Assembly (NCBI GenBank): GCA_021795575.1
Contig: JAJYPH010000006.1
Span: 1-52,880, forward strand
Direction of reading: 5' to 3'
Source of the DNA: Bacillota bacterium
Lineage (GTDB): Bacteria > Bacillota > Sulfobacillia > Sulfobacillales > JAIMBI01
DNA length: 52,880 bases
Positions within the stretch are counted from its first letter, which is position 1. Each line of letters opens with the position of its first letter. The translations under genes and the position numbers were made by a program. This document shows, piece after piece, positions 4,192-33,329 of this stretch. The notes below the pieces were generated by a model. It was not told where the DNA came from and did not search any database. It saw only the letters and a program-made list of their open reading frames with translations.

Positions 4192-5262
4192 TCATGCCAA
4201 GGCGTGCCGCCCCAGGCGCGGCAGCAGCGCGACCGCTGTCTCATGGTACAACGCGGCGAGCGCCGCGTCCGACAGGCCGAGCCCATAAATCTGCCAGCGG
4301 CCCTGCAGGCCGGGGTGGCGCGCCTGGCCGGGACTGTAGTCAAAGTATTCATCGCGGGTTTCCAGCATTCTGTAAACCGTGCGGTAGTCCTCACGGCTGG
4401 CGGGCCAGTCGTCCAGCCCAAACGCCACCCGACCCCGGTGCGCCTCCAGAAAGTCGTGTGCGGTGTAGGGCTGGCGGCCCAGCTCCGCGGTGCGCGCGGC
4501 AATGTCCACCGTAAGATTGGGATGCCGGGCCAAGAGCGCGGACACGCGAACCAGATCCTCCGAGCAGGACGCGAGGTGGGCTCCAATGAAGCGTGTCGCC
4601 GGATGGCGGCTCATGACGGCTTCCCAGTCCGCGATCAGGGCGGCGTGGCTCGGGACGCCCGGTCCGTAGAAGTGCCAGTCGGGGTGGCGCACTAGCTCCT
4701 CATACCGCTCGTTGGTTTCGTCCAGCGGCTCGAAGAAGGCCATCGGGTCCGCGACGTGGATCATGATGGGCACGCCCCGCTCGCCGCACGTGGCCCAGAG
4801 GCCGTCGAGGCGCGGGTCCGAGAGGGCCAGGCGCTGGCCATCCGGCGTCCGACGGGTGAGGCCGACGTCTTTCCACACTTTCAGACCCTCGGCGCCGTCG
4901 TCCAGCGCCTGGCGCAGTTCGTGGGTCATCCGGTCCCCAAAGTCATCGTGGGCCAGCGCGTGGTCCCAGTCCACGGTGGCAAAGACCACGAACCGGTCGG
5001 GATAGGGCCCCCGAAAACGCCCGAGGTGCATCGCGAGCCGCTCCCCGCTGCCGCCATCCAGGTCCACCATGGCGGCGACGCCGGCCGCATCCATCTCGGC
5101 CACCAGTGCGGGCACGTCCGTGACCTGCCAGCGCCCGCCCCATTGAGAGTGGTTGTGGATGTCGATGACCGGACAGCGCGGCCGCTCGACCCGGTGGCTG
5201 GGCACCCGCAGCATGGAGCGGGGACGAAAGGCCGCCAGCGGCAGGGTGGGGGACTCGGGCAT
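4192..5262 (-). CDS. Amidohydrolase family (Amidohydro_2) metal-dependent hydrolase
   Basis: A 356-residue predicted TIM-barrel hydrolase of the amidohydrolase-2 family, which acts on C-N, C-O or C-C (decarboxylation) bonds of small substrates. The metal-binding HxH is in VIDIHNHSQWGG (about residue 32). Later landmarks are VPIMIHVADP, FIGAHLASCSEDL and the C-terminal VAFGLDDWP, where the family usually has an FGTDWP-like Asp motif. The start ATG has GAGGAGTGAGG upstream. It lies 51 bases downstream of the Rieske gene on the same strand and may be the last gene of the suf transcript. L-rhamnono-lactonases are also in this family, so it could supply the missing lactonase of the rhamnose cluster, but nothing in the sequence shows its substrate. 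Confidence 0.75.
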   Translation of the reverse strand: MPESPTLPLAAFRPRSMLRVPSHRVERPRCPVIDIHNHSQWGGRWQVTDVPALVAEMDAAGVAAMVDLDGGSGERLAMHLGRFRGPYPDRFVVFATVDWDHALAHDDFGDRMTHELRQALDDGAEGLKVWKDVGLTRRTPDGQRLALSDPRLDGLWATCGERGVPIMIHVADPMAFFEPLDETNERYEELVRHPDWHFYGPGVPSHAALIADWEAVMSRHPATRFIGAHLASCSEDLVRVSALLARHPNLTVDIAARTAELGRQPYTAHDFLEAHRGRVAFGLDDWPASREDYRTVYRMLETRDEYFDYSPGQARHPGLQGRWQIYGLGLSDAALAALYHETAVALLPRLGRHALA

Positions 5263-18660: not shown

Positions 18661-18674
18661 TCTGGTGAACCAGA
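18661..18674. promoter_or_regulatory. Palindromic operator candidate before the rhamnose cluster
   Basis: A perfect dyad TCTGGT-GA-ACCAGA about 30 bases before the GTG of the first gene of the predicted rhamnose operon. It is placed where a repressor such as the locally encoded IclR protein could act. No clear sigma-A hexamers flank it. Function is inferred. Confidence 0.4.
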
Positions 18675-18702
18675 GTTCTCATACAGGAATCGGAGGTGGA
18701 CT

Positions 18703-19512
18703 GTGCCGTATTCGGTCCGCATGGTGCAGGCAGCCGACCTGGGCGAGGTGCCCGGTCCCGAAGTGTTTTGGATGAGTCACTTTGACCAGTGGCTGCCGCT
18801 CCAGGTGTACGTGGGAATCATCCGGGGTGAGGGGCGCACGGTGCTGGTCAACTCGGGACCTCCCCAAGATTATCTAGACGTCATGAACGCCGTCTGGCGT
18901 CAGGAGCTGGGGCCGCGCGCGCACATCTCCGTGGAGGGGTCGGACGCGGTGGCCGCGTGGCTTGGTCGCGTGGGCGTGGCGCCGGACGACGTGGACGCCA
19001 TTGTCGTGACGCCGCTCCAGGCGTATGCCATTGGGAACATCGACCGGTTCCCCAATGCCGAGGTGTGCGTCAGCCGTCGGGGATGGGAGGATCTGGTGGC
19101 GCCGGCGCGCTTCGACCCGCGCCGGCGCATGGCGGTGCCCGACCGGCTGCTGCGCTACCTGTTGGAAGATCGCTGGGCGCACCAGCGCTTTCGGCTCTTG
19201 GGGGACGCAGGCGACGAGGTGGTGCCGGGCGTGCGCACCTGGTGGGCGGGCACCCACCACCGAAGCTCACTGGCCGTGGAAGTGGACAGCCCGGAGGGGG
19301 TGGTGGTGCTGTCCGACGTGGCGTTCTACTACGAAAACCTGGAAAACGACCATCCCCTGGGGATCCAAGAGAGTCTTGAGGAGTGCCGCAGCGCCTATGA
19401 GCGCATCCGCGCGTGCGGCGGCCGTTTTGTGTCCCTCTACGACCCACGCAATCGGGAGCGGTTTCCTGACGGCTGGGTCGTCCGACCCATCTCGACCGAG
19501 GTGGCCGAGTGA
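18703..19512 (+). CDS. Metallo-beta-lactamase-fold protein lacking the HxHxDH metal site
   Basis: A 269-residue protein with the layout of an N-acyl-homoserine-lactonase-type MBL hydrolase: LPLQVYVGIIRGEGRTVLVN in the first strands, SGPPQDY where VDTG is usual, and then VVTPLQAYAIGNIDRFP (101-117) exactly where such enzymes have TH(L)HxDHxGN. There Pro104, Gln106, Tyr108 and Ala109 replace the His, His, Asp and His ligands. THH (184-186) and Asp205 in VVLSDV remain, but the final His is Tyr246 in SLYDP. The gene is intact, with GGAGG before its GTG start, and couples by GTGA to the L-rhamnose dehydrogenase gene. It may be a metal-independent lactonase or diketo-acid hydrolase, or a non-catalytic partner; this is inference. 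Confidence 0.7.
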   Translation: MPYSVRMVQAADLGEVPGPEVFWMSHFDQWLPLQVYVGIIRGEGRTVLVNSGPPQDYLDVMNAVWRQELGPRAHISVEGSDAVAAWLGRVGVAPDDVDAIVVTPLQAYAIGNIDRFPNAEVCVSRRGWEDLVAPARFDPRRRMAVPDRLLRYLLEDRWAHQRFRLLGDAGDEVVPGVRTWWAGTHHRSSLAVEVDSPEGVVVLSDVAFYYENLENDHPLGIQESLEECRSAYERIRACGGRFVSLYDPRNRERFPDGWVVRPISTEVAE

Positions 19513-20288
19513 CCGGGGGGCGGCTCGACGGCAAGGTGGCGGTGGTGACGGGGGCCGGCCGGGGCATTGGGCGGGCGGTGGCGCGGCGCCTGGGGGAGGA
19601 CGGGGCGCGCGTGGTCGTCAACTTCCCCGGCGATCCCGGCGAGGCCGGGCATGCGGCGTCCGTGGTCGCGGAGATTCGCGCGGCGGGTGGCGAAGCCTGG
19701 GCGGTGGAGGCCGACGTGTCGCAGTCCGACGAGGTGGCGCGGCTCTTCGACGCGGTGGCGGCCGAGACCGGTGGGCTGGATATCTTGGTGAACAATGCGG
19801 GCATCTGCCCGTTCCAGGATTGGTGGGGCATGACGGAGGCGCTGTGGGACCGGGTGGCGGCGGTCAATCTCAAAGGGACGTTTCTCTGCAGCCACCGGGC
19901 GTCCCGCATGATGCGCGACCGCGGGGCGGGCGGCCGCATCATCAGCATGTCGTCCATTTCCGCGCTGGTGGGGGGCGAACGGCAGACGCACTACACGCCC
20001 ACCAAGGCGGGCGTGCGATCGCTCATGCAGTCGCTGGCCATCGTGCTGGGGCCCTACGGGATCACCTGCAACAGTGTCATGCCGGGGTCGATTCTGACCG
20101 ACATCAACCGAGCCCACTATGAGGAACCGGGTCTGAAAGTGCGCGATGAGGCGCGGATCCCGCTGGGACGGCTGGGCCAGCCGCGCGACATCGCGGGGGC
20201 GGTGGCGTTTCTCGCCTCCGACGATGCCGCCTACATCACGGGGGCAGACATCCTGGTGGATGGCGGCCTGTTTGTGAACCTGCAGTAA
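19509..20288 (+). CDS. SDR family L-rhamnose 1-dehydrogenase (predicted)
   Basis: A 259-residue classical SDR predicted to oxidise L-rhamnose to L-rhamnono-lactone with NAD(P)+. The cofactor motif is VVTGAGRGIGRAVARRL. NNAGICPF, a run I associate with L-rhamnose dehydrogenases, is followed by the catalytic Ser in ISMSSISALV and Tyr/Lys in HYTPTKAG. The end YITGADILVDGGLF is typical of the FabG-like group. It begins GTG overlapping the MBL gene stop. Its neighbours, a mutarotase and L-rhamnonate dehydratase, support the assignment; by sequence alone another sugar or an oxoacyl substrate could not be excluded. Confidence 0.75.
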   Translation: MTGGRLDGKVAVVTGAGRGIGRAVARRLGEDGARVVVNFPGDPGEAGHAASVVAEIRAAGGEAWAVEADVSQSDEVARLFDAVAAETGGLDILVNNAGICPFQDWWGMTEALWDRVAAVNLKGTFLCSHRASRMMRDRGAGGRIISMSSISALVGGERQTHYTPTKAGVRSLMQSLAIVLGPYGITCNSVMPGSILTDINRAHYEEPGLKVRDEARIPLGRLGQPRDIAGAVAFLASDDAAYITGADILVDGGLFVNLQ

Positions 20289-20355: not shown

Positions 20356-20673
20356 TTGCAGCCAGCGGTCTTTCGGATGCGAATTCAGCCAGGGATGGAA
20401 GACGTGTACCGCGAGCGCCACCAGGCCGTCTGGCCCGAAGTGGAGGCGGCGCTGCGGCGCGCCGGCTTTGCCCGCTACAGCATTTTCGCGGCGGGTACGG
20501 AGCTGGTGGCGTACTTCGAGGCGGTCGATCCGCCGGCCACCCTGGCACGGTTGGCGGAAGAGCCCGTCATGAAGCGGTGGTGGGCGTGGATGGCGCCGGT
20601 TATGGCGGACGAACCGGCCGACGCGCATGACTACGTGCGCGTGTATCACCTGGATGACCCACGAGAGGAGTGA
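20356..20673 (+). CDS. rhaM: L-rhamnose mutarotase
   Basis: A 105-residue RhaM/RhaU-family protein that interconverts the anomers of L-rhamnose so the dehydrogenase gets its preferred form. The family pattern is clear: FRMRIQPGMEDVYRERHQAV with the catalytic His22, WPEVEAALRRAGFARYSIF, and the C-terminal WWAWMAPVM. I use TTG 20356 as start (GGGAGGG 8 bases upstream); the homologous N-terminal strand requires it, whereas ATG 20377 would cut it. It lies between the dehydrogenase and the MDR enzyme in one run. Confidence 0.88.
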   Translation: MQPAVFRMRIQPGMEDVYRERHQAVWPEVEAALRRAGFARYSIFAAGTELVAYFEAVDPPATLARLAEEPVMKRWWAWMAPVMADEPADAHDYVRVYHLDDPREE

Positions 20674-20677
20674 CAGC

Positions 20678-21709
20678 ATGCAGGCGTTGGTCTGGGAAGG
20701 CCCGGAACGGATGACCTACCGGAGCGCGGACGCTCCGGTCGCGGCGTCGGGCCACGTGGTGCTGCGCGTGGCGGGGGTGGGGGTATGCGGGTCTGAACTG
20801 GGCGCCTACCTGGGGCACAATGAACTGCGCCGGCCCCCGCTGGTCATGGGCCACGAATTTTCCGGCGTCGTGGTGGAGGTGGGGACGGGGGTCGACCCCG
20901 TGTGGGAGGGCGCCAGCGTGGTGGTGAACCCATTGGTCACGTGCGGAACCTGCCGATGGTGTCGCCGGGGGGAGCGGCAGCTTTGCCGCACCCGGCGAAT
21001 CATCGGCATCGACTTTCCCGGTGCCTTTGCCGAGCGGGTGGTGGTCCCGGCGGCGTCCCTGTGGCGGGTGCACCGCGACCCCGAGGACCTCTGGACCGGT
21101 GCCCTGGTGGAACCCCTGGCCTGCGCCGTGCGAGCCACGGGTCAGGCGGCGATTGAGGTGGGGGACGCGGTGCTGGTGTACGGGGCCGGCATCATTGGGC
21201 TGATGTCGGCGTGGATGGCCCGGCGTCGGGGTGCGGGGTCCGTGTGGCTGGTGGATGCCAATCCCGTGCGGCTGAGTCAGGGCCCGGTGTGGGGGGCCGA
21301 CCGCGCGCTGGACGCCACCGCCGAGGACGTGGCGGCGCTGGTGCGCCGCACCCACCCGGACGGTGTGGACCGGGTCATCGACGCGGTGGGGCTCCCCGGC
21401 ACTCGGCGCCAGGGGCTGGAACTGCTGGTCCGCGGCGGCCGCCTGGTGCTGGTGGGCCTTCACGAGCCCGCCACCACCCTGGACGGCAACCGGGTGGTGC
21501 GGGACGAAACCGAAGTGGTCGGGTCGTTCTGCTATCGCGATCAGGACTTCGCCGTGGCCACCAATCTGTGGGATGGCCGCCGCCTGCCCGAAGAGGGCGG
21601 GTGGCTGGACCGGCGCCCACTGTCCGCGGGCGACGCCGCGTTTCAGGAACAGGCCCGAGGCCCAGCGCCGTTTGCCAAAATCGTGCTGGACGCGGAGGGG
21701 AGGCCATGA
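20678..21709 (+). CDS. Zinc-type MDR dehydrogenase, probable 2-keto-3-deoxy-L-rhamnonate dehydrogenase
   Basis: A 343-residue medium-chain alcohol/polyol dehydrogenase. Catalytic zinc ligands are Cys37 in GVGVCGSE and His59/Glu60 in MGHEFSG; structural zinc cysteines are Cys89, 92, 95 and 103 (CGTCRWC...C). The NAD(P) motif is VLVYGAGIIGLM. Context places it between mutarotase and L-rhamnonate dehydratase. From memory, an MDR-type 2-keto-3-deoxy-L-rhamnonate dehydrogenase has been described from Sulfobacillus, which would fit step four, oxidation at C4 to the diketo acid. Sorbitol or threonine dehydrogenase activity is the alternative. It starts 4 bases after rhaM, with GAGAGGAG upstream. Confidence 0.7.
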   Translation: MQALVWEGPERMTYRSADAPVAASGHVVLRVAGVGVCGSELGAYLGHNELRRPPLVMGHEFSGVVVEVGTGVDPVWEGASVVVNPLVTCGTCRWCRRGERQLCRTRRIIGIDFPGAFAERVVVPAASLWRVHRDPEDLWTGALVEPLACAVRATGQAAIEVGDAVLVYGAGIIGLMSAWMARRRGAGSVWLVDANPVRLSQGPVWGADRALDATAEDVAALVRRTHPDGVDRVIDAVGLPGTRRQGLELLVRGGRLVLVGLHEPATTLDGNRVVRDETEVVGSFCYRDQDFAVATNLWDGRRLPEEGGWLDRRPLSAGDAAFQEQARGPAPFAKIVLDAEGRP

Positions 21710-22878
21710 GCGGCGAGCGCATTCGGGCCGTGCGGGCGCTCACGGTCCGCGGGGGCGGGGCCGACTACCACGACCAAGCGGCCAACCACTGGATTGTGGG
21801 CCAGGTGGCCACGCCGATGTCCCGCTACCCCGCGTATCGGGGCACGCGGTCGTCCTGGGGGATCGACGCGCTGGGCACTGTGGTGGTGGAGGTGGAAGAC
21901 GAGGCCGGCCGCGTGGGCGTCGGCGTGAGCACGGGCGGGGTGCCCGCCGCATGGCTGGTGGCCCATCACTTGGACCGGTTTGTCGTGGGCCGGCATCCGA
22001 GCCAGGTGGAACTCATGTGGGACCAGATGTACCGGTCGTCCCTGTACTACGGGCGGAAGGGTCTGGCCTTAAACGCGATTTCGGCCGTCGATCTCGCCCT
22101 GTGGGACCTTTGGGGGCGCCAGCGGCAGGAACCGGTGTTTCACCTGCTGGGCGGGCCGGTCCGGCGGGTCCTCCCGTGCTACGCCACCGGGCCCCGGCCC
22201 GACTGGGCCGTGGCTGAGGGGTTTCTCGGCGGGAAGCTGCCCCTGGTGCACGGTCCCGACGAAGGGATGGTCGGCCTGCGCCAGAATGTGGACACCGTCG
22301 CGCGCGCGCGGGACCAGGTGGGCGCCGACGCGCTCCTGATGGTGGACTGCTGGATGGCGCTCGATCTGAACTATGCGGAACAGCTGGTCGCCGGCTTGGC
22401 GCCCCTGGGCGTCTACTGGGTGGAGGAGTGCTTTCCGGCTGACGACTACTGGTCGTATCGCGAGCTCCGCCGGCGGCGTCCCCTGGGGATGCGCATTGCC
22501 ACCGGGGAGCACGAAGCGACGCGCTGGGGTTTTCGGCTCCTGCTGGAGATGGAGGCCGCCGACGTGATCCAGCCCGACGTGACGTGGTGCGGAGGTCTGA
22601 CCGAGCTCACGCGAATCGCGGCGTTGGCCGACAGCTGGCAGGTGCCCGTGATTCCCCATGGGTCAAGTGTGTACAGTTATCACTTCGCCGCCGCCCGCGC
22701 GGCCACCCCCTTCTCCGAGTTCCTCATGATGCATCCCACGGCGACCGGCCTCACGCCGATGTTTGCCCCGCTGCTGCTGGGAGAGCCGCTGCCGCTCAAT
22801 GGCGTGATCACGGTGCCCGACACGCCCGGGTTTGGCGTGGAGCTGAATCGGTCCCTGGACCTGATGCCGGCGCCCTAA
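21706..22878 (+). CDS. rhmD: L-rhamnonate dehydratase (enolase superfamily)
   Basis: A 390-residue enolase-superfamily dehydratase, converting L-rhamnonate to 2-keto-3-deoxy-L-rhamnonate with Mg2+. The N-terminal signature NHWIVGQVATPMSRYPAYRG is characteristic of RhmD. Metal ligands are Asp214 in LMVDCWMALD, Glu240 in YWVEECFPADDY and Glu268 in IATGEHEATRWGF; the catalytic His318 is in VIPHGSSVYSYHF. The length is normal for the family. It overlaps the preceding dehydrogenase by ATGA. This is the most secure functional call in the sugar cluster. Confidence 0.9.
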   Translation: MSGERIRAVRALTVRGGGADYHDQAANHWIVGQVATPMSRYPAYRGTRSSWGIDALGTVVVEVEDEAGRVGVGVSTGGVPAAWLVAHHLDRFVVGRHPSQVELMWDQMYRSSLYYGRKGLALNAISAVDLALWDLWGRQRQEPVFHLLGGPVRRVLPCYATGPRPDWAVAEGFLGGKLPLVHGPDEGMVGLRQNVDTVARARDQVGADALLMVDCWMALDLNYAEQLVAGLAPLGVYWVEECFPADDYWSYRELRRRRPLGMRIATGEHEATRWGFRLLLEMEAADVIQPDVTWCGGLTELTRIAALADSWQVPVIPHGSSVYSYHFAAARAATPFSEFLMMHPTATGLTPMFAPLLLGEPLPLNGVITVPDTPGFGVELNRSLDLMPAP

Positions 22879-22910: not shown

Positions 22911-23016
22911 TGAAGCGAGCCCGGCGGAGGCAGGACTCGGTGGACCGCGCCGCGAATATGAGTGAACGGGAGTTCATAGATGAGAATTCCGTGAGCGATG
23001 AAGGGGAGTGTTGCTC

Positions 23017-24378
23017 GTGAGCACCGCACCGGGGTCCGGGGGAGGGGCGCTGGCACAGGTGGACGACGCCCGCTTGAGTGGGGCACATTGGCGCTGGACC
23101 ATCCTGTCTGCGCTGGGGGACTATTTGGATGCCGGCTCGATTGTGGCCGGTGGCGCATCGGTCTTGTTTTGGACGCAGCTGTTTCACCTCGATTCGTCGA
23201 CCGTGGGTCTCATTGCGGCGGTGGGGTCGAACGGGTTTTCCACGGCGGTAGGGGCCATTATCGGCGGGCGGCTCGGCGACTTCTACGGCCGCAAATTTAT
23301 TTACTCGATTGACTTGTTGATTTATGCCCTGGGGGCGGTGGTCGTGATTCTGGCGGCCAGCCTGCCTCTCTTGATCGTCGGTCTGGTGGTCATGGGCCTG
23401 GCGGTGGGCGCCGACATTCCCACGTCGTGGTCCCTGATCGCCGAGTTTTCGCCGCGGCGGGAGCGCGGCAAGATGATGGGCTTCACCAACATCTTCTGGT
23501 ACATCGGTCCCATTGTGATCCTGCTGCTGTCGCTCGCGTTCAGCCATCTGGGCATCACGGGCGTGCGGCTGGTGTTTGGGAGCCTCCTGCTGGTCGCCAT
23601 CGTCACGTGGTTCTTGCGCCGGTCGCTGACGGAGTCGCCGCGCTGGGCGTTGGCCCGCGGCAAGACGGCTGAGGTGGAGCAGGCGGCCCACCAGCTGGGC
23701 TTTCAGGCGGAGGCGGACGCACCCGCGACCACTCCGGCCGTGGCGCCCTGGCGCGAGATGTTTCGAAACGGTGGCTGGCGGCGGCTCGGGTTCATCACGC
23801 CCATCTACGTACTGTGGGGGATCCCGGCCGGGACGTATGGGTTCTTTCTGCCGTATATCTTCAAGACCGAAGGCGCCACCACCGCGGCGGGCGGGGACCT
23901 GTTGGAAATTCTCTGGTTCGCCTCGGCCATCGTGGCGGTGCTGGTGATTTTCATGCCGTTCAATGACCGGGTGGACCGACGCCTCCTGTATGCCATCAGT
24001 GCCGCGTTCTGCGCCGCGGCCTTTTTCCTGTTGGTGGCCTTCCCCATCACCGACCCGACGGTGGCCATCTTAAACGTTCTGCTGTTCGGGTTCGGGCAGG
24101 GGATTGGACTCTGGCCGCTGCAGCGCGTGTGGTCCGTGGAGCTGTTTCCGACCAGCGTGCGCAACACGGCGCAGGGGTCGCTGTGGGCGGTCATGCGCAT
24201 CATGATTGGGGGATGGAGCCTTTTCCTGCCGGTGTTGGCCGGCGCGTCCGGCTTCAAGCTGGTGGCGGTCATCATGGGAGTGATGTTCACCTACAACCTG
24301 GTGGTGGGCGGACTGTTTGGTCCGCGCACCAGTGGGCAGTCTCTGGAGGCGATTCAATCCGGGGGCCTGTCGGCCTAG
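23017..24378 (+). CDS. MFS sugar transporter (predicted L-rhamnose/sugar uptake)
   Basis: About 453 residues with 12 predicted membrane helices, sugar-porter type. Cytoplasmic loop 2-3 has GGRLGDFYGRKFIY, the MFS A-motif G-x-L-x-D-x-x-GRK/R. The loop after helix 4 has SPRRERGKMM, and the central loop begins RRSLTESPRWALARGK (like PESPRWL of sugar porters). The C-half keeps WSVELFPTSVRNTAQG. Its place between the rhamnose enzymes and the IclR regulator suggests it imports L-rhamnose or its acid. I prefer GTG 23017, with AAGGGGAG 8 bases upstream, over GTG 23008, which touches that site. Confidence 0.8.
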   Translation: MSTAPGSGGGALAQVDDARLSGAHWRWTILSALGDYLDAGSIVAGGASVLFWTQLFHLDSSTVGLIAAVGSNGFSTAVGAIIGGRLGDFYGRKFIYSIDLLIYALGAVVVILAASLPLLIVGLVVMGLAVGADIPTSWSLIAEFSPRRERGKMMGFTNIFWYIGPIVILLLSLAFSHLGITGVRLVFGSLLLVAIVTWFLRRSLTESPRWALARGKTAEVEQAAHQLGFQAEADAPATTPAVAPWREMFRNGGWRRLGFITPIYVLWGIPAGTYGFFLPYIFKTEGATTAAGGDLLEILWFASAIVAVLVIFMPFNDRVDRRLLYAISAAFCAAAFFLLVAFPITDPTVAILNVLLFGFGQGIGLWPLQRVWSVELFPTSVRNTAQGSLWAVMRIMIGGWSLFLPVLAGASGFKLVAVIMGVMFTYNLVVGGLFGPRTSGQSLEAIQSGGLSA

Positions 24379-24500: not shown

Positions 24501-25301
24501 ATGGCGGACCCGACGGGCGCGGGCGCAGTCAAATCGGCGGCCCGCGTCGTGGAGGTGCTGGAGGCGGTGGCGCGCCGCCCCTCGGGACTCACGTTCACGG
24601 AACTGCTGGATGCGACCGATATTCCGCGCAGCAGCCTGCACGGCCTGGTGCACACGCTCGCCGGTCGGGGCGTCATTCAGTTGGACTTGGCGACCAAACG
24701 CTATGCACCGGGCCCGAAGTTGTGGGAGTTGGCCATGAACTATGCCCAGCAGCTGCAGCTGGTGCCGCTGGCGTGGCCGGCGTTGGAGTCCCTGCGCAAC
24801 GCGTTTGACGAAACCGTGCAGATGGGCGTGCTGAACGGTCCCGATGTGGTTTACGTAGCCAAAGCCTCCTCGAGCCACCCGCTGCAAATGGTGTCGCATG
24901 TGGGAAGCCGCCTGCCCGCGTATGCCACCGGGCTGGGCAAGGCGCTGCTGGCGGGACTGGCGCCATCCGCCGTGCAAGCCCTGCTGCCGGCTTCCCTCCC
25001 GCAGTACACGCGAGCGACCCTCACCACGCGGGCGGCGCTGCAGGACGACTTGGCGCATGTGCGCGCACGGGGATACGCCCGGGATGCGGGCGAGTACTCA
25101 GGCGATGTGCGCTGTGTCGCGGCGCCGGTGGTGGAGCACACCGGCGCGGTGGTGGCCGCCGTCTCGGTGACCATGGCCAGCGAACGGTTTTCGCCCGAGC
25201 GTGAGGCCGCCATTGCGCCGGCCCTGGTCGAAGCGGTGGAACGGGTGAGCGGGCAGTTGGGCTGCCTGGACTGGCACCGGTGGCGGCACAAGGAGGTGTA
25301 G
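24501..25301 (+). CDS. IclR family transcriptional regulator
   Basis: A 266-residue IclR-type regulator. The N-terminal winged helix is AARVVEVLEAVARRPSGLTF...ATDIPRSSLHGLVHTLAGRG. The C-terminal effector domain shows GSRLPAYATGLGKALLAGL and the late EYSGDVRCVAAPV strand with a Ser-Gly in place of the more usual small motif. A GGAGGGGG site precedes ATG 24501. It is the first gene before lutABC and follows the transporter, so it is the likely controller of the rhamnose/lactate genes; the effector could be a keto-deoxy acid or lactate. Confidence 0.88.
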   Translation: MADPTGAGAVKSAARVVEVLEAVARRPSGLTFTELLDATDIPRSSLHGLVHTLAGRGVIQLDLATKRYAPGPKLWELAMNYAQQLQLVPLAWPALESLRNAFDETVQMGVLNGPDVVYVAKASSSHPLQMVSHVGSRLPAYATGLGKALLAGLAPSAVQALLPASLPQYTRATLTTRAALQDDLAHVRARGYARDAGEYSGDVRCVAAPVVEHTGAVVAAVSVTMASERFSPEREAAIAPALVEAVERVSGQLGCLDWHRWRHKEV

Positions 25302-25302
25302 T

Positions 25303-26136
25303 GTGGAGCAGGTCGACTTGTTTGTGTCGTGCCTCGTGGATTTGTTCGAACCCGCAACCGGTCGGGCGGCCGTGGCGGTGATGGAGCGGCGCGGCGCTCA
25401 GGTCGGGTTTCCTCTCGGACAAACGTGCTGTGGGCAGTTTGCCTACAATGCCGGCCACTGGCCGGAGGCGTGGGCCATGGCGAAAAATTTGCTGGCGGCG
25501 CTGGATGCCCCGCCCACGCCAGGCCCCGACAGAGGAGAGCGCGCCACCGTGGGGCTGTCGGGCTCCTGCGTCGCCATGGTCCGCGAAGAATACCCCAAGC
25601 TTTTGGACTGGGCCGCGGACCAACCGGGCTGGGACAGTAGTTGGCGCGTACGGCACGCGCGCGTGGCCGGTCGGCTCTGGGAGTTGTCCCAGTGGCTGAA
25701 TCGGGCCGCCCTTGCGCCGGTCGCGGACGAAGACACGACCACGACCCGCGTGGCGCTGCACACGGGCTGCCATATGCGGCGGGTGCTGGGCGCGGGCGCC
25801 GACGCGGCCGCCGTACTGGCGGCACTGCGGGTGAGGGTGGCCACGCCGGAGGACGAGGACCAGTGCTGCGGTTTTGGCGGCACCTACGCGATGACCGAGC
25901 CGAAAATCTCTACGGCACTCGCCGACGACAAGCTGACGGCGCTGCGGGCCACCCAGGCGGATGCCATGGTGAGCTGCGACTGGGGATGCCTGCTGCACCT
26001 CGCAGGTCGCCTGTCCCGTACCGGCGTCGCCTGGCCGGTGCTGCATCTCGCGGAGCTGGTGGATCTGGCCGACCGTGGAGAGCTGGCTCCCACGCAGCTG
26101 GCCCGGGCGGGGCGGTTTGCCCGGGAGGTGCCGTGA
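25303..26136 (+). CDS. lutA: L-lactate utilisation protein LutA (CCG-domain Fe-S protein)
   Basis: A 277-residue LutA/LldE-type protein, one of three subunits of the LutABC complex that oxidises L-lactate to pyruvate in Bacillota and others. It has two CCG-type cysteine domains. The first has VDLFVSCLVDLF near the N-terminus and GQTCCGQFAYNAGH; the second has HTGCHMRRVL and EDQCCGFGGTYAM, with MVSCDWGCLLHL at the end. The start is GTG 25303, one base after the iclR stop, with AGGAGG just upstream. Confidence 0.9.
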   Translation: MEQVDLFVSCLVDLFEPATGRAAVAVMERRGAQVGFPLGQTCCGQFAYNAGHWPEAWAMAKNLLAALDAPPTPGPDRGERATVGLSGSCVAMVREEYPKLLDWAADQPGWDSSWRVRHARVAGRLWELSQWLNRAALAPVADEDTTTTRVALHTGCHMRRVLGAGADAAAVLAALRVRVATPEDEDQCCGFGGTYAMTEPKISTALADDKLTALRATQADAMVSCDWGCLLHLAGRLSRTGVAWPVLHLAELVDLADRGELAPTQLARAGRFAREVP

Positions 26137-27587
26137 TGGCGGGACGGCTCCCGCGCGATCCCGCGCCGTGGGCGGCGCGCCGTGATCGGGCGCTCGCCAG
26201 CCCCGTGCTGCGGGCCAACATCCGCAGCGTCACGCACCGGCTGGCCGACGCCCGTCGCCGCGCGTACGCCAGCTACCCGGCCGGCCAGGTGCTGCGCGTG
26301 GCCGGGCGGGACGCCAAGCGACGGGCGATGGCCCAGGTGGAGCCCCTGTTGGACCAGCTGCGCGACCGCTTGTCCGCGAACGGCGCGCGGGTGATTTTTG
26401 CTGAGGGCCCCAAAGAGGTGGCCGACTACGTTGTGAGCCTGGCCGCCCGTCGGGGGGCGCAGCGGATTGTCAAGTCGAAAAGCATGCTGACGGAAGAATT
26501 GGATCTGAACCGGCGCCTGGCGGCCGCCGGTCTGGCCGTTCGGGAGACGGATCTGGGCGAGTACATCATCCAGCTGCTGGACGAGCGTCCCAGCCACATC
26601 CTGGCGCCGGCGGCGCACAGAAACCGCCAAGAGATCCACGCCGTCTTCCAGGAAACCGCGGACCGCGAGGGGGTGCCCGGCCCGACCTCGGACGACGTGG
26701 GGCCGCTGACCGCGTTTGCGCGCCAGCGCCTGCGCGAGGACTTCCTGGCCGCGGAGATCGGCATTACGGGGGCCAACTTTCTGGTGGCGGAGACGGGCAC
26801 CGTCGTGCTGATCACCAACGAGGGCAATGCCGACATGGTGGCGTCCCTGCCGCCGGTGCACGTGGTCATTGCCGGCATCGACAAGGTGCTGGACACGTGG
26901 GACGCCCTGGCAGCCGTGATCCAGCAGCCGGCCCTCTCGGGCGTGGGTCAGCGCCTGTCGGCCTACACGACCCTGATCTCGGGCCCCCGCGCCGCCGGCT
27001 CACCGGAGGGGCCGGAGGAACTGCACGTGCTGCTGGTGGACAACGGCCGTCGGCAGCTGCTGGGCGGGCCGTACGCGGACGTCCTCACCTGCATTCGGTG
27101 TGGCGCCTGTTACAACGTGTGCCCGGTGTACCGGCAGGTGGGCGGACACGCGTATGGCTCCACCTACGCCGGTCCCATCGGGGCTGTGGAAACGCCGCTG
27201 CTGGCGGGCCTGGACTTCCTGCCCGAGTTGCCCAAGTCGCTCTGTACGCTCTGCAACGCGTGTGTGGAGGCGTGCCCGATGGACATCGCCCTGCCGGACC
27301 ACTTCATCACGCTGCGGCGCCGCCAGGTCGACGAAGGCCGGGAGGCCGCCGGGACGCGACTGACGTATCGGGCGTGGGGGCGTCTCTGGTCGTCCCCGCG
27401 GCAGTACCAGCGCTTCGTGTCCTGGGCGCGGCGCGGCCAGCGATTCATGATGCGGCAGGGGCGCCTCGTGCGCTCGCCGGGCTTGTGGGCCGGCTGGTTC
27501 GAGACGCGGGACATGCCGCCGATTGCCCCCGAAACCTTTCACGAGTGGTGGGCCCGCCGCTCGCCGTCCGGGAAGGCGCCGGTATGA
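26136..27587 (+). CDS. lutB: L-lactate utilisation iron-sulfur protein LutB
   Basis: A 483-residue LutB. The N-terminal DUF162/LUD-like domain includes VKSKSMLTEELDLNRRLAAAG, GEYIIQLLDERPSHIL and GITGANFLVAETGTVVLITN. The C-terminal half binds two [4Fe-4S] clusters: CIRCGACYNVCPVYRQVGGH and CTLCNACVEACPMDIALPDH. It ends with a short LutB tail (WWARR). The ATG overlaps the lutA stop by one base (TGATG) and GGGAGGTG lies upstream; the open frame extends far upstream inside lutA but is not homologous there. Confidence 0.93.
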   Translation: MAGRLPRDPAPWAARRDRALASPVLRANIRSVTHRLADARRRAYASYPAGQVLRVAGRDAKRRAMAQVEPLLDQLRDRLSANGARVIFAEGPKEVADYVVSLAARRGAQRIVKSKSMLTEELDLNRRLAAAGLAVRETDLGEYIIQLLDERPSHILAPAAHRNRQEIHAVFQETADREGVPGPTSDDVGPLTAFARQRLREDFLAAEIGITGANFLVAETGTVVLITNEGNADMVASLPPVHVVIAGIDKVLDTWDALAAVIQQPALSGVGQRLSAYTTLISGPRAAGSPEGPEELHVLLVDNGRRQLLGGPYADVLTCIRCGACYNVCPVYRQVGGHAYGSTYAGPIGAVETPLLAGLDFLPELPKSLCTLCNACVEACPMDIALPDHFITLRRRQVDEGREAAGTRLTYRAWGRLWSSPRQYQRFVSWARRGQRFMMRQGRLVRSPGLWAGWFETRDMPPIAPETFHEWWARRSPSGKAPV

Positions 27588-28210
27588 GCGGGCCCGGCGG
27601 TTCGCCGCTCCGGCAGGCGTTTCGCGCGCGTTGGGAAGGGCTGGGCGGACAGTACTGGGAGACCGCGCCCGGGCCCGGTCTGACCGGCACGGTGGCAGCG
27701 GCGGCGGATGCTCTTATCGACCGCGTGCCGGGGCAGAAGCCCCCGGCCCTGTGGTGGCCCGGTCCTGCGTGGGCGTCGCTTGCGTGGGAGGCGGCGCTTC
27801 CTCCAGACCGATGGACCGTGACGGCCGTCACGGGGCGGGAGCCGCTCACGGTCGGCGGCCGCCCCACGGACCCGACGGTGCTGCGCGGTGTAGCCGCGTC
27901 GGCGGTGCTCGGGGTCACCGGTGCCGCCTGGGCGGTGGCCGACACCGGGTCGGTGGCGCTCACGAGTGCACCGGGGCAGGGTCTCTGGCCGAGCCTCCTG
28001 CCGCCCAGCCACCTCATCGTGCTGCGCGAGGCCCAGGTGGTGGCCACCGTGGCCGACGGCCTCCGGCGGGTGCGGGCCGAGGGCCCTCCGCCGGCCATGG
28101 CCAAAATCATCTCGGGGCCGAGCTCCACGGCCGACATCGAAGGTCAACTGTGGATTGGGGTGCACGGTCCCGGGCGTGTCGGCGTGGTGGTGGTCACGGG
28201 GGCTGATTGA
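27584..28210 (+). CDS. lutC: L-lactate utilisation protein LutC
   Basis: A 208-residue LutC (LUD domain), the third subunit of the LutABC system. Typical stretches are VTGAAWAVADTGSVALTS, SLLPPSHLIVLREAQVV and IISGPSSTADIEGQLWIGVH, the last being the family hallmark (GPSxTADIExxLxxGVHGP). The start overlaps the lutB stop by ATGA. It is somewhat short at the N-terminus but within family range. Confidence 0.92.
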   Translation: MSGPGGSPLRQAFRARWEGLGGQYWETAPGPGLTGTVAAAADALIDRVPGQKPPALWWPGPAWASLAWEAALPPDRWTVTAVTGREPLTVGGRPTDPTVLRGVAASAVLGVTGAAWAVADTGSVALTSAPGQGLWPSLLPPSHLIVLREAQVVATVADGLRRVRAEGPPPAMAKIISGPSSTADIEGQLWIGVHGPGRVGVVVVTGAD

Positions 28211-30488: not shown

Positions 30489-31787
30489 GTTGTGTAAACT
30501 CCCCGGTGGTTATTTCAGGTAGGGGGTCAGCCGGTCCTCAAAGTAGATGACCAACTGGCCCAGAATCTCGCCCCAGTGCGGCAGACGGTTCGTCCACTTC
30601 CGCTAGCTTCTTGGCCCGCCAAGTACAGCATTTTCGTCAGCGCCGTGTCCGTCGTTGAGGCTCTTGCGCTTGGTCACCTTGCGCAGCTGCCGGTGGAAGC
30701 CTTCAATCCTGTTGAGAGGGTTGGTGGTGTAGATCGTGCGCCGGAGCCCCTCGGGATACCGATAAAAGGTCGTCAGTTCGTCCCAGTTGGTTTCCCAGGA
30801 CCGCACCACCGTGGGATACCGGTCCCCCCAGTCGGCGGCAAAGTCCGCCAGCGCCGCCGTCCCCGCGTCTTCCGTGGGCGCCTGGTAGATGGGGCGCAGG
30901 GCCGCCGTGAGGGCCGCATAGTCCTTGCGGGCGGCGTACTGGAGCGAGGTCCGGGTCTGGTGGACCACGCACTTCTGCACGTCCGCCCGCGGGAACACCG
31001 TGGCAATCGCTTCACTGAACCCGGTGAGGTGGTCCACCGCTACAACCAGGACATCCTGGACCCCCCCGGCTTTTGAGCTCACTCAGCACGGTGAGCCAGA
31101 ATTTCGCGGATTCGTGAGCCCCGATCCACATCCCCAGGACGTCCTGGTAGCCCTCGAGGTCAATGCCCACCACCATGTAGGCAGCTTTATTGACCACCCG
31201 GCCGTCCTCGCGGACCTTGTAGGGGATGGCGTCCAAGAACACCACGGGGTAGCAGGCGGCCAGCGGCCGCTGCTGCCACTCCGTGATGCGGGGTAACCGC
31301 TGGTCCGTAATGTTCGACACCAGCGCCGGCGAGATCTCCACGCCATACAGGTGCGCCAGTTGGGCCTGAATGTCCCGGGTCGGTCCCCCGCGCATACCGG
31401 GCGATGACTGGGTCCTCAATGCCGACCATCGTGGTCTGATGCGGGGGCACCACGACGGGCGTGAAGCTCCCGTCGCGGTCGCGGGGGATCGCCAGGGGCA
31501 CCTCCCCGTATTCGGTGGTGACCTGCTTGGGGTACCGGCCGTTGCGGCGGTTCGGGGTGGGCTTGGGGCCGGCCTGGTGCTTCGGATAGCCCAACGGTCT
31601 CCAGCTCGCCGGCCCACATCGCCTGCAGCGTCTCCGCAAACAGGCTTTTCAAGGCCCGCTGGACGTCTTCGGGGGACCGGAAGTCATGGGTCGCGATGAA
31701 GTCGCGCATTTGCTCGTGGGTCAATATGCTCATGGGAAGCTTCCTCACGGTAAACTCCAGAATATGGGACCAGGGAGTTTACACAAC
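30489..31787 (-). mobile_element. IS256-family insertion sequence (degenerate) with terminal inverted repeats
   Basis: About 1.3 kb bounded by inverted repeats GTTGTGTAAACTCCCCGGT (30489-30507) and its complement at 31769-31787, 18 of 19 bases matching. The size and the enclosed transposase fit the IS256 (Mutator) family. No 8-9 base target duplication is visible at the edges: the left flank ends TCAAGGGT and the right flank begins CCATGCTA. On its right it abuts the 5'-truncated IS110 gene directly, so it probably inserted into, or deleted part of, that element. Confidence 0.8.
30510..31733 (-). pseudogene. IS256-family transposase broken by several frameshifts
   Basis: The transposase can be followed end to end only by switching frames. 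MSILTHEQMRDFIATHDF to AGELETVG starts at 31733. LGYPKHQAGPKPTPNRRNGR to VIARYARG is in a second frame from about 31590. DIQAQLAHLYGVEISPALVS to WLTVLSELKSRG, holding the catalytic VVFLDAIPYKV, is in a third frame from about 31390. VQDVLVVAVDHLTGFSEAI to RKVTKRKS is back in the first frame from about 31070. TDTALTKMLYLA is shifted again near 30650, and a TAG at 30605-30603 precedes RKWTNRLPHWGEILGQLVIY and the final TAA at 30510. At least five shifts, so it cannot make an active enzyme. Confidence 0.85.
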
Positions 31788-31789
31788 CC

Positions 31790-32734
31790 ATGCTACTCCC
31801 GCAGCGGCAGTTGACGGCGCTGGGGGTGGCCTGCCCGGTCATCGCGCCGGGCCTGGTGCCGACGCGGCCCACCGACCGCCTCCAGACGGACCGGCGCGAT
31901 GCGCGCCACTGGGCGGACGCGCTGTGGGCGGGGACGCTGACGCCGGTGCGGGTGCCGACCGCGGCCGAGGAAGCCTTCCGCGACTGGGTGCGGGCGCGGA
32001 CGACGGCGGTGCCGGTCCGCCAGCGCGCGCGGCAGCGGGTCAAGAGCACGCTCCGGCGCTGGGGCCTCCGCCCTCCGGCGGGCCGGGCCGCCTGGGGGCC
32101 GGCTTACCGGGCCTGGCTCCGGCCGGTCACGCCGACACCGCCCCCCCGGGACCCGGTGTGGGTGGAGTTGCTCAGCCAATTGGAGGAAGCGGACACGCGG
32201 GTGGACCGGATCACCCGGCAGATCGGGACCGCGTGGCCGGCCCACCCGCTGGCGCCGCTGATGCGGGCGTGGCAGGGGCTCCGCGGCGTGGATTGGCTCA
32301 CGGCGGCGACGTTGGCCGCCGGGCGGGGCGACGGCGCGACCTTCACGCACCCGCGGCACATGATGGCCTGGGCCGGGTGGGTGCCGTCCGAAGCCTCGAG
32401 CGGCGTCACGCGGCACCAGGGCGGACTGACGAAGACGGGCAACGCCCCCCTCCGCCGCATCTTGGTGGAGGCGGCCCGCAGCTATCGGTTCCGGCCGCGC
32501 ACCGACGGGCCGGTGGGGCGCCGCCTCGCGGCGCTGGGGCCGTGGGAGCCGCCGGTGAGCGCCATCAGCGGGCGGGCGCCACAGCGCCTCCATGCGCGGC
32601 TGCGCACCCTGCCAGGGCGTCGGGGCACCCCGAAGGCGATCGCGGCAGTCGCCCGAGCACTGTGCGGGTACCTGTGGGAAATTGCCGTCTGGGTCCGCGT
32701 TCAGCCGCCGGGGGAGGTGCCGCCTGCCGCCTAA
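31790..32734 (+). pseudogene. 5'-truncated IS110-family transposase
   Basis: An open frame of 314 residues starting at the very edge of the IS256-family element. It has the rear of the IS110 DEDD domain (PTDRLQTDRRDARHWADALW, LTPVRVPTAAEEAFRDWVRA) and the Transposase_20 C-terminal domain (LRGVDWLTAATLAAGRGDGA, then HPRHMMAWAGWVPSEASSGV and TKTGNAPLRRILVEAARSYR). The first ~80 residues, including the GxDVHK-type catalytic Asp, are missing, as is the upstream end that would encode the bridge RNA. ATG 31790 is fortuitous, with no ribosome site. A dyad TCCCCGA/TCGGGGA follows the stop at 32744-32757. Confidence 0.85.
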
Positions 32735-33329
32735 GCCGCTCGGTCCCCGATCGGGGAGCCGTGAGCCCGCGGCGCGGGGTCGGGAGAGCCCTCGTGACTC
32801 CTATGCGTTAACGGCGACGGGCTATACGCGGGAGGCGTGCCGGTGACGGCCGCCGGGGATTCCGCCCCACACGATGTCCAGCGCACCGACAGGCTAAGAG
32901 AGCGGCCGCCGCACCGTGAGCGTTCCAGGTTCGGTTTGTCCCCGGCCCCCTTCCGACAGAACGTGGCTCCAATACGATCGCAACGCCTCGGGAAGAGCGC
33001 GGTGGCGGTGGGGCCACCCCGTGTACCTGGTCCACGCCGTAGACGCTGAGGACCCGACGCACGTCGTCGAGCCGCCCTCGCCGGACCACCCGAGCGATCG
33101 GCCACTCGGCATGCCGGTCCACGTCAAGATGCTCCACGGGCTTGTCCTAAAACCATACCCGCCGCCGGACCGGCACAAGGTGCTGCCGGCTTGCATCCGC
33201 TGACCTCGCATCATGCGGAAATCCTCTAAAATATTGCAACGGCCGCGCCATGTCATTCGCCAGCCCACTCTGGGCGCCAGCGGGCGGCCGGGCGATGGGG
33301 TGCACAGTGATCCCTGGCGATGGGGCGGC
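32735..33329. other. Scar region between the IS110 remnant and corA
   Basis: Nearly 600 bases with no intact gene. It holds the hairpin TCCCCGATCGGGGA at 32744-32757, the decayed DUF6922-like gene on the minus strand (32950-33146) and otherwise unrecognised sequence. An AT-richer patch (CTCTAAAATATTGCAA, near 33225-33240) lies upstream of the relic and could be its former promoter region. Confidence 0.5.
32950..33146 (-). pseudogene. Decayed DUF6922-like (antitoxin-associated) gene
   Basis: Minus-strand residues VEHLDVDRHAEWPIARVV and RRGRLDDVRRVLSVYGVDQV resemble the DUF6922 core (…hA.fii.RVLeyGd.eDvrwl…YG…). The next conserved part, ALPEALRSYWSHVLSE, continues in a different frame from about 32998 to 32950. 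A TAG stop lies five codons before VEHL. DUF6922 proteins are usually encoded beside AbiEii-type nucleotidyltransferase toxins, none of which is present here. The assignment is by pattern memory only. Confidence 0.4.

Follow-up and report, generated by a model that had tools for sequence, protein, structure and literature searches.

A metal-less MBL-fold protein, candidate L-rhamnono-lactonase, in the rhamnose operon of Sulfobacillales

Rhamnose operons in Sulfobacillales encode an MBL-fold protein, here termed MBLx, in which five of the seven metal ligands have given way to other, strictly conserved residues. Judged from genomic context, there is about an even chance that MBLx is an L-rhamnono-lactonase whose catalysis does not need the dimetal centre, and may instead use a His185-Asp205 dyad. 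A fuller account is somewhat more doubtful than that: a metal-independent MBL-fold lactonase that lost its dimetal centre once and gained an invariant His-Asp-Arg-Tyr-Gln site instead, fixed as a rhamnose step in Sulfobacillales and serving another sugar operon in a second clade. We infer the lactonase reaction, the lack of metal, and the part played by each single residue.

Few hydrolase superfamilies are larger than that of the MBL fold, whose chemistry is assumed to depend on the metal centre. If the proposal is true, MBLx represents a new, metal-free use of a very common fold, and accounts for the lactonase missing from the rhamnose pathway of acidophilic Bacillota. A clade that combines a single invariant pattern, one pathway step and canonical relatives would allow a direct test of how a metallohydrolase turns to metal-free catalysis. 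It would also caution against zinc-hydrolase or quorum-quenching-lactonase annotations for such genes. A literature search, which covered Bae 2015 and Reinhardt 2019 through citations of them, found neither a metal-independent MBL lactonase nor an MBL rhamnono-lactonase; ligand-less MBL members in the literature found are described as pseudoenzymes (e.g., INTS9, PMC7980224).

The rhamnose operon

The window is the whole stretch of DNA analysed, 52,880 nucleotides long. Its rhamnose operon comprises the following features.

18667 to 18678, no strand: palindrome GAACCAGAGTTC, candidate operator 36 bases 5' of the MBLx gene (sequence; conserved in relatives)
18692 to 18699, + strand: ribosome-binding site GGAGGTGG, preceding the MBLx GTG start (sequence reading)
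18703 to 19512, + strand: MBLx, metal-less MBL-fold protein, predicted L-rhamnono-lactonase (PF00753, AlphaFold2, Foldseek, orthologues)
19509 to 20288, + strand: SDR, L-rhamnose 1-dehydrogenase candidate (NF053807, 329.7 bits, below the cut-off of 400)
20356 to 20673, + strand: L-rhamnose mutarotase RhaM (PF05336, 84.6 bits)
20678 to 21709, + strand: MDR dehydrogenase (ADH_N and ADH_zinc_N)
21709 to 22878, + strand: L-rhamnonate dehydratase (NF011968, 590 bits, cut-off 393)
22964 to 22975, no strand: second palindrome, GAACnnnnGTTC, 5' of the MFS transporter gene (sequence scan)
23008 to 24378, + strand: MFS sugar transporter (PF00083, 126 bits)
24501 to 25301, + strand: IclR-family regulator (PF01614, 154.8 bits)
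25303 to 26136, + strand: LutA-like protein (PF02754)
26133 to 27587, + strand: LutB, L-lactate oxidation iron-sulfur protein (TIGR00273, 416 bits, below the cut-off of 444.8)
27584 to 28210, + strand: LutC candidate (position 3' of LutB; synteny kept in relatives)

L-Rhamnose 1-dehydrogenase is the best-scoring family of all for the SDR protein, though the score is under the cut-off. An MDR-type KDRDH has been reported from Sulfobacillus thermosulfidooxidans (Bae 2015, as cited in PMC5674754 and PMC10444878). The operon would specify a non-phosphorylative pathway that runs from rhamnose through rhamnono-lactone, rhamnonate, 2-keto-3-deoxy-rhamnonate, and a 2,4-diketo acid to pyruvate and L-lactate, the L-lactate then being oxidised by LutABC. 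This ending fits because genes for lactate oxidation lie in the run.

The diketo-hydrolase rhamnose pathway of Sphingomonas and Haloferax, with the Sulfobacillus KDRDH, likewise has clustered genes for the dehydrogenase, rhamnonate dehydratase, KDRDH, FAH, and lactate oxidation. By comparison, the operon in the window has MBLx in place of an amidohydrolase lactonase, and is without FAH. As the original prediction had noted, the run contains no gene for an SMP30 or amidohydrolase lactonase or for an FAH-type hydrolase; open reading frames and profile searches of the window's own run agree.

The MBLx reading frame is intact: 269 residues, a GTG start, and no internal stop. A four-base GTGA overlap joins its end to the dehydrogenase gene, as it does in two relatives (L002 and L003). 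Full frame and overlap together confirm the earlier view of an undamaged gene translationally coupled to the dehydrogenase.

The GAACnnnnGTTC palindrome lies upstream of the MBLx gene in the window and in 10 of 13 other loci scanned. Its distance from the orthologous gene is 28-47 bases in eight of these (L002, L003, L004, L005, L040, L041, L042, and L047) and farther, 32-143 bases according to which start is taken, in two (L046 and L049). It also precedes the MFS gene in three loci from the window's genus (L002, L003, and L036). Its presence upstream of both the MBLx and the MFS genes suggests that MBLx likely belongs to the same regulon; the palindromes are candidate IclR operators.

The fold

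By prediction, MBLx has the MBL fold. The Pfam profile PF00753 matches residues 32 to 238 with 32.8 bits (cut-off 22.7), in keeping with the intact fold signature originally described. It is the sole Pfam family found in MBLx at E 0.1; PF04909 (amidohydrolase) and PF08450 (SMP30) are absent at that threshold. The AlphaFold2 model has a mean pLDDT of 92.2 and a pTM of 0.91. Foldseek matches it, with E-values down to 4e-18, most closely to PDB entries for AHL lactonases (8x78, AiiA, and GcL) and 4-pyridoxolactonase, at TM-scores of about 0.7-0.8.

The best characterised sequence relatives also are AHL lactonases, with similarity over about 190-206 residues. With AiiA, AiiB, GcL, and 8x78, MBLx has in common the fold (TM about 0.7-0.8), the motif-3 His, and the bridging Asp. 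It differs in structural-alignment identity, which is 12-21%, and in its replaced HxHxDH motif and last His; against the AiiA profile NF045699 it scores 33.7 bits, below the equivalog cut-off of 375. The catabolic lactonase 4-pyridoxolactonase (4keq and 3aj3) shares the fold, with TM-scores of 0.75-0.76. Identity there is 17%, MBLx lacks the metal motif, and its score against NF047925 is 15.5 bits, versus a cut-off of 325.

The former metal site

To compare residues at the metal site, 23 metal-less sequences (20 genomes) were aligned with 10 canonical homologues. The relevant elements of the MBLx gene are as follows.

18850 to 18852, + strand: Asn50 codon (the same in all 23 metal-less rows, where the 10 canonical rows have Asp)
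19009 to 19038, + strand: TPLQAYAIGN, residues 103-112, replacing T-HxHxDH (P104, Q106, Y108, and A109 invariant in 23 rows)
19252 to 19269, + strand: THHRSS, residues 184-189, with the motif-3 His185 kept and His186, Arg187, and Ser188 new (alignment)
19315 to 19329, + strand: bridging Asp205, retained, and Tyr209, new (alignment)
19438 to 19440, + strand: Tyr246, replacing the last His ligand (alignment, 23 rows)

The five replaced ligands are Pro104, Gln106, Tyr108, and Ala109, all within the TPLQAYA that stands for the HxHxDH region, and Tyr246. The original prediction correctly described these losses, but missed two retained positions: the motif-3 His185 and the bridging Asp205, which are invariant in metal-less and canonical rows alike.

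All five replacements are invariant in 23 of 23 metal-less sequences. Invariant columns number 58 of 269, and five of five replaced ligands fall among them (hypergeometric p = 4e-4). Five further residues, Asn50, His186, Arg187, Ser188, and Tyr209, likewise are invariant in the 23 sequences, and the whole stretch from His185 to Ser189 is invariant where canonical rows read HTPGS. In all 10 canonical relatives the replaced ligands differ, as do nearly all of the five further pocket-motif residues. The substitution pattern of this clade is more than chance.

Conservation and origin

A first search gave MBLx orthologues, 59-95% identical, in 21 other Sulfobacillales genomes, and an order-wide search added one more (G535), making 22 besides the window's own. 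Pairwise dN/dS is 0.06-0.16 between rhamnose-operon orthologues, and 0.17 in a second metal-less clade. Cross-family identity of MBLx, about 60%, comes near that of rhamnonate dehydratase (mostly 61-66%) and exceeds that of the MDR enzyme (51-56%). The TPLQAY substitutions, which might have been either conserved or drifting, are the same in every orthologue, a pattern that speaks against decay. Close homologues from the same operon with a full HxHxDH site were sought, with a negative result. Conserved substitutions and purifying selection support the idea, put forward originally, of a repurposed MBL fold. One orthologue (L027; G144:C51:842-1612) has a single in-frame TAA toward the C-terminal part, which reflects either a genuine disruption or a mistake in the assembly.

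The metal-less sequences group as one clade (support 100/100; stem length 2.47) when 41 proteins are placed in a maximum-likelihood tree. Sequence comparison thus indicates a single origin, in which the metal centre was replaced once. Canonical relatives are about 30% identical to the clade; the nearest in the tree are L052, L125, and L126, all with THLHYDH. The exact sister relation is tentative, because long branches were flagged. L052 and L125 adjoin SDR and enolase-family dehydratase-like genes, and L126 is near an SDR gene.

The second metal-less clade comprises L050, L051, and the tandem neighbour in L037. Its neighbours are another SDR and an aminotransferase-V gene; L050 and L051 also have an enolase-family dehydratase there.

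A sample of 398 genomes from the phylum yielded the family, at E 1e-25, in the window's own genome only. Plasmid matches to MBLx are distant, and the one examined, from Nonomuraea, is a canonical THLHYDH protein.

Several loci are of separate interest. The second metal-less clade occurs in a sugar-operon-like setting at L050:1848-6038 and L051:1874-5870. L037:10222-11870 (G134) carries a tandem pair of metal-less MBL genes, 50-60% identical to that of the window, in a larger sugar operon. At L052:9656-12396 and L125:638-3420, canonical HLHYDH homologues stand beside sugar-dehydrogenase-like and dehydratase-like genes; these homologues are likely metal-dependent sugar lactonases.

The pathway step

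Among 39 Sulfobacillales genomes, 22 encode both MBLx and L-rhamnonate dehydratase, 16 encode neither, and one (G121) encodes the dehydratase only (Fisher p = 4.5e-10, with shared ancestry ignored). The G121 contig starts inside the dehydrogenase gene; by the gene order of its sister G105, MBLx would fall just past the contig end.

Nine relatives (G071, G109, G130, G131, G133, G140, G142, G150, and G535) have an FAA-hydrolase (FAH) gene in the rhamnose locus together with MBLx, where it adjoins either LutA or the MDR and dehydrogenase genes. Two of these FAH proteins score 232-234 bits against PF01557. Since FAH coexists with MBLx in nine loci, MBLx would be no substitute for the diketo-hydrolase, and the lactonase slot alone is left. 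The original prediction had given equal weight to a missing lactonase and a missing diketo-hydrolase, an equivalence that these nine loci undo. The FAH gap that it reported does exist in the window's operon, but is a feature of the lineage and not of the pathway.

In other bacteria, the lactonase slot is filled differently. The L-rhamnono-gamma-lactonase LRA2 and its bacterial amidohydrolase counterparts occupy the place in the rhamnose operon that MBLx takes here, and belong to another fold and family (PF04909, versus PF00753). Rhamnose operons of Caulobacter, Sphingomonas, and Acidisoma contain an amidohydrolase gene, and those of the first two also FAH and SDR genes. The Sulfobacillales operon always has the MBL gene and never such an amidohydrolase. 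Six genomes (G000, G071, G109, G131, G133, and G138) lack both SMP30 proteins and relatives of the Caulobacter amidohydrolase at E 1e-8; they include the window's own genome, where that relative was not found at this threshold, and the near-complete G071 and G133.

In every acidophilic Sulfobacillus-type genome with a complete rhamnose operon, MBLx therefore appears, from gene content, to be the sole gene that fits the lactone-opening step. The case is strong but not closed, because other Amidohydro_2 proteins exist outside the operon in all genomes. One, encoded in the window about 13 kb ahead of the operon (4195-5262, - strand; PF04909, 53.7 bits), does not match the amidohydrolase of the Caulobacter rhamnose operon at E 1e-8.

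Mechanism and alternatives

The context evidence backs the lactone step more than it backs any mechanism. As a working scheme, the ancestor of MBLx would have been a dimetal lactonase of the AHL-lactonase or 4-pyridoxolactonase type in an aldose-oxidation operon, and its metal centre would have been exchanged once for a fixed polar set. His185, oriented by Asp205, would activate water for metal-independent ring opening; Arg187, His186, Tyr108, Tyr209, and Tyr246 would make contact with the lactone hydroxyls and with the oxyanion, stabilising the tetrahedral intermediate. The positions of these residues rest on an alignment with the metal ligands and not on model coordinates. For GcL, a metal-bound Asp and a conserved Tyr have been discussed as acid/base catalysts, and not every proposed mechanism has a metal-bound nucleophile (PMC11423328). 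These proposals make a metal-free descendant chemically thinkable, and nothing beyond that.

MBLx might instead be a non-catalytic pseudoenzyme: a scaffold, a chaperone, an allosteric subunit of a rhamnose enzyme, or a sensor of a pathway lactone. Ligand loss marks known MBL pseudoenzymes such as INTS9 and CPSF100, which like MBLx have the MBL fold minus most metal ligands (PMC7980224). Moreover, a lactonase need not be essential, because sugar lactones can open spontaneously, and in the window's genus the MBLx gene is coupled to the dehydrogenase. However, this neighbour varies: the dehydrogenase in family f1, the MDR gene in most of f2, and a dehydratase paralogue in G146. INTS9 and CPSF100 belong to the RNA-processing MBL/beta-CASP proteins and pair with an active paralogue, whereas MBLx is in several genomes the sole MBL relative at E 1e-8; a second relative, as possible active partner, is absent at that threshold in G071, G133, G095, G109, and G087. 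The polar residues at the former catalytic site are invariant, and the paralogous metal-less clade occurs in other sugar operons. That the polar set in the former metal pocket is invariant, and that no neighbour gene is fixed, favours an enzyme; we consider a pseudoenzyme unlikely, if deserving of serious attention.

A metal-dependent lactonase with a rebuilt single-metal site, formed for example by Gln106, His185, and Asp205 with His186 or a tyrosine, seems distinctly improbable. His185 and Asp205 are kept, Gln106 stands for a His ligand in every member, and the fold is that of metal lactonases; GOB-type metallo-beta-lactamases have a glutamine at a position like that of Gln106. Nevertheless, the histidines and Asp of the second site are gone, along with the last His, and Pro104 and Ala109 cannot bind metal.

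There is a slim prospect that MBLx catalyses not hydrolysis but isomerisation of 1,5- to 1,4-rhamnono-lactone, or some other acyl transfer. The product that a sugar dehydrogenase releases can be a 1,5-lactone, whereas the substrate of a pathway lactonase may be a 1,4-lactone. No activated water is required for an intramolecular acyl transfer, and the context evidence is equal to that for a metal-independent lactonase. Against this, the rhamnose operons of Caulobacter, Sphingomonas, and Acidisoma have no separate isomerase gene, and we know of no MBL-fold relative with lactone isomerase activity.

That MBLx stands in for the diketo-acid hydrolase is very hard to credit. The window's operon is without FAH, and the closest FAH in the window's genome matches in the C-terminal domain only (54%); yet that genome encodes three FAH proteins elsewhere, and in nine genomes an orthologue with the same residues coexists with FAH in the rhamnose locus, on which ground this role was rejected. 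A decaying copy of a metallo-lactonase, to which the five lost ligands and the TAA in the G144 orthologue might point, is refuted by dN/dS of 0.06-0.17 and by identical substitutions in 23 sequences throughout.

Two features of the surrounding DNA were noted by eye. Reading frames at 31696-32811 of the window resemble an IS110-type transposase. In relatives, large proteins that adjoin the rhamnose operon (L043:1850-4501, L045:7744-10467, and L090:1608-4340) look like alpha-L-rhamnosidases.
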